64,000 nucleotides of DNA from an uncultured bacterium (lineage in GTDB: Bacteria; Bacillota_I; Bacilli_A; RFN20; CAG-826): positions 1-64,000 of the forward strand of contig CASDRB010000002.1 of the NCBI GenBank assembly GCA_949283025.1, written 5' to 3'. The position numbers were made by a program, and so were the translations under genes. How positions within the stretch are numbered: position 1 is the first letter of the stretch; every line of letters starts with the position of its first letter. The notes beneath the pieces are model-generated. The model had not been told where the DNA came from, did no database searches, and saw only the letters and a program-made list of their open reading frames with translations. Below are positions 61,167-64,000 of this stretch, in pieces.

Positions 61167-61243
61167 CGAGATGTAGCACAGCTTGGTAGTGCGCTTGGTT
61201 CGGGACCAAGAGGTCATGGGTTCGAATCCCACCATCTCGACCA
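61167..61243 (+). tRNA. tRNA-Pro (anticodon CGG), CCA encoded
   Basis: Acceptor CGAGATG/CATCTCG, D-arm GCAC/GTGC, anticodon stem CTTGG/CCAAG enclosing TTCGGGA (anticodon CGG), T-arm ATGGG-TTCGAAT-CCCAC with an A-C mismatch at the first pair, and encoded CCA. It lies at the junction between conserved genes and the mobile-type region, so its 3' end is the obvious candidate attachment site. Confidence 0.94.
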
Positions 61244-61677: not shown

Positions 61678-62037
61678 ATGGGATACACAAAATTCGGAAA
61701 AATAGTTAGAAAAGAAATGATTGACCATGATGAAAACTTATTATCAATTGCTCAATTATTAGGCGTTACTACGTCTTTTGTTTCTGCTGTTTTAACAGGT
61801 GGTAAAAGTGTACCAGATAATTGGGTAGATGAATTATCTAAACATTATGGTCTAAAAGGCTCTAAATATGATGAGCTTTACGATGCATATTGTGAAGATA
61901 AGAAGAATGTTAGAATTGATGTTGAAAATGTTCCGTTAACTCAAAAGAAGTTGGCATTACAATTTCAAAGAAAGCTTCCTGAATTAGATGAAGATGAGAT
62001 TCAATCTATCTTCGATATTTTAAAGGAGGATAAGTAA
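61678..62037 (+). CDS. XRE-type HTH regulator of the element
   Basis: A 119-residue protein with a helix-turn-helix at about 20-60 (LLSIAQLLGVTTSFVSAVLTGGKSVP) and an acidic C-terminal tail. Small HTH proteins paired with an ImmA-type protease are the repressor/anti-repressor switch of ICEBs1-type elements and many prophages: the repressor keeps transfer genes off and is cleaved on DNA damage or quorum signal. AAAGGAGCG precedes ATG 61678; the stop overlaps the next start (TAATG). Repression of its own promoter is inferred from the palindromes, not shown. Confidence 0.85.
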   Translation: MGYTKFGKIVRKEMIDHDENLLSIAQLLGVTTSFVSAVLTGGKSVPDNWVDELSKHYGLKGSKYDELYDAYCEDKKNVRIDVENVPLTQKKLALQFQRKLPELDEDEIQSIFDILKEDK

Positions 62038-62606
62038 TGGATTATGAATCAAGATTATCTTTGAGCAGAATACAGGTAAGAGAAATATCTAAATTTGCTA
62101 GAAGGATGTTAAAAATTAAAACTGTTAAACTTCCAGTTTTAAAGGCGCATGAAAAGTTAATAGATAAATTCCCTAATAATCTTTATTATCGTATTTTGCC
62201 CGATGATGAATTTGAGACAAATGTAATGGCAGAATTAGTTCCAGAAGGCAACGATGTTTACTGCATTAAAATACGTGAAACAGTATATGAAAAAGCAGTA
62301 AATGGTGATAGAGCTAGTCTGGGATTTATTTGCCATGAAATGTGTCATTTTATCTTGATTCATATATTTGATGCTGGCCCAGTAATGTATGTGAATGAAA
62401 GCGGGTTAGCTTATGCAAGAAGTTTTAAAGATAAAGAATTGCCACGATATAAAAGTATGGAATGGCAAGCTATGGCACTTTGTGGGGAGATAATGATCCC
62501 TTACGAAAAATGCAAAGATTATTCATTTAAACAAATTGTCAGTAGAACTTATAGTTCTGATGAACAAACTAAATATTTCTTAAGATGGGTAGTTAAACCA
62601 GAATAG
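62037..62606 (+). CDS. ImmA/IrrE-family metallopeptidase
   Basis: A 189-residue protein with the zinc-protease signature His100-Glu-Met-Cys-His104 (HEMCH) followed by a later Glu-rich helix (MEWQAMALCGEIMIPYEKC) that supplies the third ligand, as in ImmA of ICEBs1. In that system ImmA cuts the repressor ImmR. Overlap with the upstream HTH gene by one base supports a functional pair. Codon use is close to that of the chromosome, so transfer was not from a distant host. Confidence 0.88.
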   Translation: MDYESRLSLSRIQVREISKFARRMLKIKTVKLPVLKAHEKLIDKFPNNLYYRILPDDEFETNVMAELVPEGNDVYCIKIRETVYEKAVNGDRASLGFICHEMCHFILIHIFDAGPVMYVNESGLAYARSFKDKELPRYKSMEWQAMALCGEIMIPYEKCKDYSFKQIVSRTYSSDEQTKYFLRWVVKPE

Positions 62607-62638: not shown

Positions 62639-62706
62639 AAAAAAAGACCCAAATCATTGCAGTGATTTGAGCCGTTTAGACAGCATGCTATGATGCCACC
62701 TTCAGC
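62639..62706 (-). ncRNA. Candidate minus-strand small RNA with own promoter and terminator
   Basis: On the minus strand TTGATA (62737-62742), an 18-base spacer and the extended -10 TGcTATAAT (62713-62721) form a strong promoter. A transcript starting near 62706 would run about 67 bases, fold GCAT-catagc-ATGC near its 5' end, and stop at GGCTCAAATCA...TGATTTGGGTC (62646-62673, 11-bp stem) followed by seven T. No open reading frame of useful length is present on either strand here. The layout resembles antisense RNAs of plasmid and type I toxin-antitoxin loci, but no partner was found. Confidence 0.7.
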
Positions 62707-62744
62707 AAGTACATTATAGCACAACTGTCTTAAAAATATCAAGT

Positions 62745-62772
62745 CCTTTGCGAGATTTCCTCGTCAGAAAGG
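62745..62772 (+). promoter_or_regulatory. Leader hairpin before the DUF4417 gene
   Basis: CCTTT-g-CGAG-atttc-CTCG-tcag-AAAGG folds into a two-part stem 34 bases before ATG 62807; the ribosome site CAGGAGGG follows after it. Confidence 0.55.
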
Positions 62773-62806
62773 CAAGAAAAATTTTTAAATACAGGAGGGT
62801 ACTATT

Positions 62807-63493
62807 ATGTACAAAGATGAAAATGATGTAGTTGAAGATTCGTTCCAAGCGTTCTTGGTGGAAGGAGCGTACTTCACTGAAATTGAGGAATATCCGATAA
62901 TTGAAGATTGGATGATTCCAGAAGTTCCGCCAAAAAAGATTATGCCTTTTGATAAAGCATTAAATTATCAAGGCGATTTAAGTGATGTATATGTCTGCAC
63001 ATATGCTAGGGATTGTACTTTTGAAAGAGTAAGAAGATACCCAAAGAAATATTTGAACTTTTTCAAAAGATGTGCTGGGCTAATAGGATTTGATTATAGC
63101 ATACATTCGGATATGCTGATAGTCAAACAAAAGGCCCAAATGAACGATAATTTATCATTATCATTTTATTATGGAAAACAAGGTAATAATCTTATTCCAA
63201 ATATAAGATATGGTATTGATGAATTAGCTGATGAATTCTTAAGTGCTATTCTTAAGCATACATTGATTGCAGTAGGCACACACGGATTCATTAAAGAGAC
63301 ATACAAAAAAGCTGAATGGTATTGTTTCTTAGAAAAAATTATAAGTGCATTAGAACCATCAGGTATCATTGTTTATGGTAAACTTAGTGGGAATATCTTT
63401 AAAGATTTTGAAGAAAAGTGTAAGTTTTATTATTATGAACCATGGATCTACTCTAATCGTAAGAAAAAAGGAGGAGATTCAGATGGCAACTAA
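62807..63493 (+). CDS. DUF4417 domain protein
   Basis: A 228-residue protein matching the DUF4417 pattern: a central region of IPEVPPKKIMPFDKAL, FERVRRYPKKYLNFFKRCAGLIGFDYSIHSDM, NLIPNIRYG, LIAVGTHGFIK, and SGIIVYGKL near the end. The family is common on Firmicutes phages and integrative elements and has no proven activity. The C-terminus is basic and ends in GGDSDGN, overlapping the next gene by 11 bases, so the two are in one operon. Strong GGAGGG site. Confidence 0.78.
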   Translation: MYKDENDVVEDSFQAFLVEGAYFTEIEEYPIIEDWMIPEVPPKKIMPFDKALNYQGDLSDVYVCTYARDCTFERVRRYPKKYLNFFKRCAGLIGFDYSIHSDMLIVKQKAQMNDNLSLSFYYGKQGNNLIPNIRYGIDELADEFLSAILKHTLIAVGTHGFIKETYKKAEWYCFLEKIISALEPSGIIVYGKLSGNIFKDFEEKCKFYYYEPWIYSNRKKKGGDSDGN

Positions 63494-63863
63494 AGGTGCA
63501 AGTTATAGATATGGAAACACTAAGGGTTCAAATCATCAAGGAAAAGCAACTGAACATATTAACTATGCTTGGGCTAAAGCTTTTAATAGAGGCGGATTAG
63601 ATAGACATTTTAGAGATCATGGCAAAGAATTTGATTGTAAGACTAAAGAAGAATATGAAGCTAAAGCTTTGAAATTTGCTAATACAGTTGATCGAGAAAA
63701 TTGTAAAAGTGTTATTGATAAAAATGGCACAACATATAAATATAATCCTAAGACCAATGTGTTGGTAGAAGTTACAAAAGATGGCTATATAGTGTCATAT
63801 AGGCATTATGGTAAGAGCACGTGGTATATTTCTAAGAAAGGAGAAAAGAAATGGATAAAATAA
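63483..63863 (+). CDS. Toxin-like protein, possible BECR-fold RNase
   Basis: A 126-residue protein. After a polar, Gly/Asn-rich N-terminus, RHFRDHGKEF (His42, His46), then an EEYEAKALKFAN helix, YKYNPKTNVLVEV (residues 85-97) and GYIVSYRHYG (101-110) with Trp114 follow one another. This order (HFxxH, helix, YNxxTN, GxIxTxY) matches the stand-alone nuclease toxins of the barnase-EndoU-colicin-RelE (BECR) group found at the ends of polymorphic toxins, recognised here by pattern only. An AAAGGAGGAG site precedes ATG 63483. The next gene overlaps it by 13 bases, in the usual toxin-immunity order. Confidence 0.6.
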   Translation: MATKGASYRYGNTKGSNHQGKATEHINYAWAKAFNRGGLDRHFRDHGKEFDCKTKEEYEAKALKFANTVDRENCKSVIDKNGTTYKYNPKTNVLVEVTKDGYIVSYRHYGKSTWYISKKGEKKWIK

Positions 63864-64000
63864 ATAAAAAATTTAAACCAATGATGTGTCCTGTCTGCGA
63901 TGGCATGTATTTTTCAGGGCCAAATAAAAATTCATTCGATGAAGATTTAGAAGAATATTTAAATGGTGAAGTACAATGTAGGCATTGCGGATGGATTTAT
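63851..64000 (+). CDS. Zinc-ribbon protein, truncated at the window end
   Basis: The first 50 residues of a protein that continues beyond the window. It shows two Cys pairs, CPVC (13-16) and CRHC (43-46) followed by GW, in the manner of CPCC-type proteins often placed after toxin genes. AAAGGAG lies about 8 bases before ATG 63851, inside the upstream gene. A role as immunity protein is inferred only from position. Confidence 0.7.
   Translation, partial: MDKINKKFKPMMCPVCDGMYFSGPNKNSFDEDLEEYLNGEVQCRHCGWIY

Follow-up and report, generated by a model that had tools for sequence, protein, structure and literature searches.

In staphylococcal RepA_N plasmids such as pSK41, the antisense RNA RNAI (~70-85 nt, two stem-loops) is complementary to the rep leader ~100 nt before the start codon and, once bound, has been proposed to bring about a stem-loop in which the ribosome-binding site is masked (PMC5703833). 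The RNAI/repC system of pT181 uses a pre-emptor arm and an alternative stem over the ribosome-binding site, at which transcription ends (PMC5703833), and in the type I toxin-antitoxin system AapA/IsoA an antisense RNA is combined with start-site-hiding folds in the toxin mRNA (PMC6733600). Here we describe a compact antisense RNA gene, predicted from the sequence, which lies over the leader of an operon encoding a DUF4417 protein and a putative toxin, in positions 1 to 64,000 (forward strand; hereafter the window) of contig CASDRB010000002.1 from an uncultured bacterium of the GTDB lineage Bacillota_I; Bacilli_A; RFN20; CAG-826 (assembly GCA_949283025.1). To our knowledge, antisense mechanisms that act by refolding a leader are otherwise known from plasmid copy control only.

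We consider it likely that this gene is one half of a two-part RNA switch. The first part would be an antisense RNA of ~68 nt made from its own promoter (minus strand, 62706-62639), and the second the leader of the DUF4417-toxin mRNA on the plus strand. This leader would adopt two mutually exclusive folds and be OFF when one of them hides the start site. The arms of these structures are called R1, R2 and R3 on the minus strand and R1', R2' and R3' on the leader (Table 1).

A conserved RNA gene opposite the operon leader

A sequence-only reading of the window had pointed to a minus-strand promoter and terminator about here, and both are present. The -35 box TTGATA (62742-62737) and the -10 box TATAAT (62718-62713), the latter preceded by TG, are separated by 18 bases; with a score of 11/12 this promoter (62742-62713) shares the top rank with one plus-strand site among the 17 promoter-like sites in 2.5 kb. 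Shuffles of such AT-rich DNA yield 13.8 such sites, so that the scan does not exceed chance by itself and the case for a small-RNA gene rests on conservation. The terminator stem (62673-62646) has 11 pairs and a loop of 6, is followed by seven T, and is one of 2 detected against 0.8 expected. The predicted RNA folds into two hairpins (-19.1 kcal/mol, z -2.1), the first with the loop CAUAGC that had been proposed. The element was rightly taken to be non-coding: the sole minus-strand frame across it, a 49-codon frame beginning with TTG (62742-62593), is not conserved, the indels among relatives not being multiples of three. An Rfam search with the window and 12 relatives gave nothing relevant, no family reaching its gathering cut-off.

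A DNA search found a near-identical copy of the element in genome G014 (99%) and one at 80% in G128, whose DUF4417 protein is no more than a distant relative of the window's. When run on 224 genomes of the same family, a covariance model built from six aligned diverged versions, located upstream of other DUF4417 genes, returned 31 matches at E<1e-7, among them a further copy of the element in the genome of the window itself (G000:C12:23849-23933). A different family of the order also has matches (G574 and G708), while weak hits (L060-L062 and most of those in other families, near E 0.001-0.01) were treated as chance. At nearly all matches DUF4417 is the next gene on the opposite strand, the exceptions noticed being contig ends and locus L042. 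The proposal of a small RNA also survived a check for relatives lacking a conserved -10 box and terminator: the extended motif TG[C/T]TAnn[A/T]T and a run of at least four T are kept in 30/30 aligned copies, and the hairpins covary. On 28 sequences the structure has 95.3% standard pairs, with compensatory changes in 15 of the 19 pairs; none of 500 shuffles reached this covariation and all slid versions scored lower. In the 5' hairpin, the excess of G-U over A-C pairs when read on the RNA strand (32 against 7) points to the minus strand as the one that is folded as RNA.

Locus L115, located through the DUF4417-locus search, has its element in the correct position and passes the start-site pairing test described below. 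At the phage DUF4417 loci L131 and L132 no element was detected by model R1, and no DUF4417 relative sought by peptide patterns in viral contigs was confirmed. Two DUF4417 relatives (L027 and L028, upstream of 3001 in each) carry 10-bp leader palindromes (GAAAGATACG/CGTATCTTTC; GGGACACAAG/CTTGTGTCCC) with no recognisable antisense promoter or terminator, possibly a version that acts in cis only.

Two complementarities of the leader arm R1'

The inverted arms AGACAG/CTGTCT and GCTAT/ATAGC, described in the sequence-only reading as bracketing the promoter region, do exist and form a plus-strand hairpin of -17.4 kcal/mol, but they are better seen as switching arms of the mRNA leader than as a mere bracket. 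Among relatives R1 and R3 covary (96% of cells paired, 27 double-change cells), with almost perfect Watson-Crick pairing (341/370). R1' is complementary, in addition, to the start site (Shine-Dalgarno sequence and start codon) of the gene that follows, a match that the earlier reading did not contain: in the window, where this gene is DUF4417, GTACAT-T-ATAG (62709-62719) pairs with CTAT-T-ATGTAC, and the perfect pairs number 12 in L042 and 11 or more in L056. This two-way complementarity of R1' is the new part of our analysis.

Over 28 non-redundant loci, pairing of R1' with the start site has a mean z of -3.0 against dinucleotide shuffles. The energy of own pairs averages -16.9 kcal/mol against -12.1 kcal/mol for swapped pairs, and 0/20,000 permutations were as good, a value which is no phylogenetic probability, the loci being related and not independent. 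A sliding scan of the leader finds the signal at R1' only (mean z -3.05 and -2.15 in two bins, ~0 farther upstream). When the stretch covered by the antisense RNA is blocked in folding, 27 of the 28 leaders have a less accessible start site (mean accessibility falling from 0.39 to 0.26, p 8e-7), and in the window the unpaired probability of the AUG drops from 0.62 to 0.06.

Many cis-antisense RNAs act by plain repression, and here too pairing with the leader might simply lead to RNase III cleavage or transcription interference, the alternative hairpins being irrelevant. The complementarity of RNA and leader is full by position, and the RNA gene alone would account for the conserved -10 box and T run and for the covariation of the small RNA; what such repression leaves unexplained is the covariation of R1 with R3, and why R1', which lies outside the RNA, should match the start site at locus after locus. 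We regard it as unlikely. The near-perfect Watson-Crick pairing of R1 and R3, spanning the -10 box, and the HTH gene found upstream in most loci would also be expected if the palindrome were a DNA operator through which that HTH repressor controls the antisense promoter. That explanation we hold to be barely probable: between the arms lie 16-40 bases, which is not typical of XRE operators, R1' tracks the start site as well, which an operator would not need, and L057, L079 and L133, where the usual upstream pair of HTH and ImmA/IrrE- or PIN-like genes is missing, have no HTH gene immediately upstream.

Returning to the switch, we infer that both RNAs are made, and the order of events would be the following. 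In new transcripts R3' would pair with R1', leaving the start site free (ON). The antisense RNA would then bind its complement, comprising the terminator side, R3' and R2', and with R3' occupied the freed R1' would pair with the region of the Shine-Dalgarno sequence and start codon, stopping translation of DUF4417 (OFF). The overlapping toxin gene would drop along with it through coupling, and the purpose could be the near-silencing of a toxin operon that a mobile island carries as cargo. The RNA does lie antisense to the leader of this operon, as first suggested, and control of the operon is the best reading of its role.

The same early reading had offered, alternatively, the antitoxin of a type I system whose toxin could not be seen. 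The predicted RNA is indeed encoded opposite an operon with a putative toxin, and its R3 arm holds a copy of part of R1'; the toxin, however, is probably the next gene of the operon (colicin D/CdiA-like, on a weak model). A classical type I system, with the small RNA as sole antitoxin directly blocking the toxin start site, appears very unlikely to us, given that the RNA does not overlap the start site, that direct pairing between them, tried and rejected, is not above shuffles (mean z -0.41), and that the putative toxin is the second gene, encodes a polar protein and is followed by a third small gene.

Apart from the relatedness of the loci, several observations weigh against the switch. The match between R1' and the start site is weak in a few loci (L036, L046, L054 and L104), and in the full fold of the window with the antisense stretch blocked only the AUG, and not the Shine-Dalgarno sequence, is better hidden. 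In the absence of the antisense RNA, too, folding energy often favours the OFF form (-27.7 against -17.4 kcal/mol in the window), so that the ON form would have to be kinetic and depend on co-transcriptional folding. A search immediately upstream of the element revealed no conserved plus-strand promoter, and the leader is therefore assumed to come from read-through from the HTH and ImmA genes or from other promoters. A plus-strand promoter within the element (TTGAGC-16-TATGAT, 62667-62694) was set aside as present, among the scanned loci, only in the window and L036.

Many relatives have a hairpin of different sequence at the place of the start-site-proximal hairpin of the window. In L036, L042, L080, L096 and L117 the leader has, after the RNA element and before DUF4417, a short open reading frame (ORF) with a good ribosome-binding site; in L036, L080, L096 and L117 R1' closes the short ORF instead of DUF4417 itself, and coupling of the closed ORF to DUF4417 would follow. 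The leader ORF of L036 overlaps the DUF4417 start, which makes translational coupling possible.

DUF4417 genes without a match to the covariance model often have, by our reading by eye, an opposite-strand element of unrelated sequence in the same place, and these elements share the plan of promoter-like sites with an R1/R3 repeat around them, a hairpin and a terminator. In seven of them, with arm and start picked by eye and with L081, L123 and L130 left out, R1' pairs with the start site better than shuffles in 7/7 cases (z -5.2 in L080, -4.1 in L089, -4.0 in L100, -3.3 in L091, -3.1 in L098, -2.7 in L096 and -2.3 in L117). L133, which was located last and stands outside the tuning and test set, shows 11 bp of perfect pairing over GTGTTATTATG (z -5.3, 0/1000 shuffles). 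Antisense terminators were detected upstream of 38/71 DUF4417 genes against 27/331 control genes. We are inclined to see in these loci a widespread and fast-diverging class of antisense-RNA switches, tied to DUF4417-toxin modules across Bacilli and related Firmicutes, with largely unrelated sequences and a shared layout in which the antisense -10 box lies inside the arm that hides the start. If this is true, one short stretch serves both as the promoter for one RNA and as the off-switch of the opposite RNA. The combination of an antisense terminator with start-site complementarity offers a search rule that finds such switches without sequence conservation.

The operon of DUF4417 and the putative toxin, and its surroundings

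The operon runs from DUF4417 to an overlapping small gene and a third small gene (Table 1). The literature on DUF4417 is almost nil, regulation not being covered in the papers searched for the name; in phages, DUF4417 has been reported as a ParB fusion (PMC12704722). For the AlphaFold model of the window's protein (pLDDT 85) the best structural match is the DNA preQ0 insertase DpdA (Z 10.2), followed by tRNA-guanine transglycosylases (TGTs; Z 8.8-9.5), and a TGT-like barrel is therefore a possible fold for DUF4417.

Across loci the products of the second gene have common short Gly-rich N-termini and variable C-termini. The model of the window's putative toxin is weak (pLDDT 50). Colicin D and CdiA toxins lead its PDB matches (lowest Foldseek E 0.036; VIA Z 6.1 over 82 residues, rmsd 3.1), and a Z of 6.1 on such a model is only suggestive of an RNase toxin. 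Near the N-terminus of several putative toxins (L043, L044, L047 and L055) there is a stretch like KLNLQLFAKMP, which resembles the motif at which the protease Prp cleaves L27 and phage capsid proteins; these toxins may be processed or packaged. The third gene possibly encodes an immunity protein.

The usual upstream neighbours across loci are an HTH gene and a gene of either ImmA/IrrE-like or PIN-like type, PIN being assigned by eye. Searches of PADLOC and NCBIfam placed none of the window's HTH, ImmA-like, DUF4417 and toxin proteins in a family. To the right of the window a large serine recombinase gene adjoins the operon (G000:C2:64447-66015; L031 2447-4015, minus strand), whose product is a relative of the cassette chromosome recombinases (CcrB E 1.5e-35, well short of the family cut-off), and its position suggests that the operon sits on a mobile island. 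A tRNA-Pro gene is found at 61167-61243.

Table 1. Features of the window around the predicted antisense RNA gene
Feature	Position	Strand	Basis or remark
Small HTH (XRE-like) gene, upstream, co-directional	61678..62037	+	PF13560 sub-threshold; same place in relatives
ImmA/IrrE-like metallopeptidase gene, upstream	62037..62606	+	sub-threshold; G128 equivalent passes PF06114
Predicted antisense small RNA, ~68 nt	62639..62706	-	5' end inferred from -10 box; fold; covariation
Small-RNA intrinsic terminator, 11-bp stem, 7 U	62639..62673	-	terminator scan; double changes in 11/11 pairs
Small-RNA 5' hairpin (R2:R3)	62678..62701	-	fold; double changes in 4/8 pairs among relatives; G-U/A-C bias
R3', proposed pre-emptor arm of leader (pairs with R1' in ON form)	62678..62695	+	-17.4 kcal/mol; R1:R3 covariation
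R1', proposed switching arm, complement of antisense -10 region (pairs with R3' in ON form or start site in OFF form)	62707..62730	+	
Small-RNA promoter, sigma-70 type, TTGATA-18-TGcTATAAT	62713..62742	-	motif scan; extended -10 kept in 30/30 relatives
Start-site-proximal leader hairpin, between R1' and Shine-Dalgarno	62745..62772	+	-8.3 kcal/mol
DUF4417 translation initiation region	62793..62812	+	AGGAGG 62793-62798; ATG 62807-62809
DUF4417 gene (PF14386, E 2e-22), presumed direct target	62807..63493	+	profile match
Putative toxin gene, 126 aa, possible colicin D/CdiA-like RNase fold	63483..63863	+	11-base overlap with DUF4417 end; weak model
Cys-rich CPCC protein (PF14206), third gene	63851..64000, continuing to G000:C2:64354	+	

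Comparison with described systems

The type I system AapA/IsoA resembles this locus in having an antisense RNA opposite the toxin transcript, here by position, and start-site-hiding folds; unlike in that system, the putative toxin is no small hydrophobic peptide and comes second in an operon, perhaps with a protein immunity partner. With pT181 the locus shares the pre-emptor arm and a competing stem that covers the ribosome-binding site. The induced stem between R1' and the start site is not followed by a U run, which sets the locus apart from the transcription attenuators of pT181 and pIP501 and leads us to expect control of translation; sense terminators were detected upstream of only 3/71 DUF4417 genes.

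The likeness to pSK41 RNAI is one of plan, and we claim no sequence relation. In both cases a short antisense RNA that forms two stem-loops and has a promoter and terminator of its own, here predicted from the DNA, is complementary to a leader far ahead of the start codon, and binding of this RNA would favour an alternative leader stem, here computed, that masks the start site. Unlike in pSK41, the switching arm overlaps the antisense -10 box and the target is a chromosomal DUF4417-toxin operon instead of a replication initiator gene. The DUF4417 module thereby gains a testable regulatory logic, and a mechanism of plasmid copy control appears to keep chromosomal putative-toxin operons quiet.
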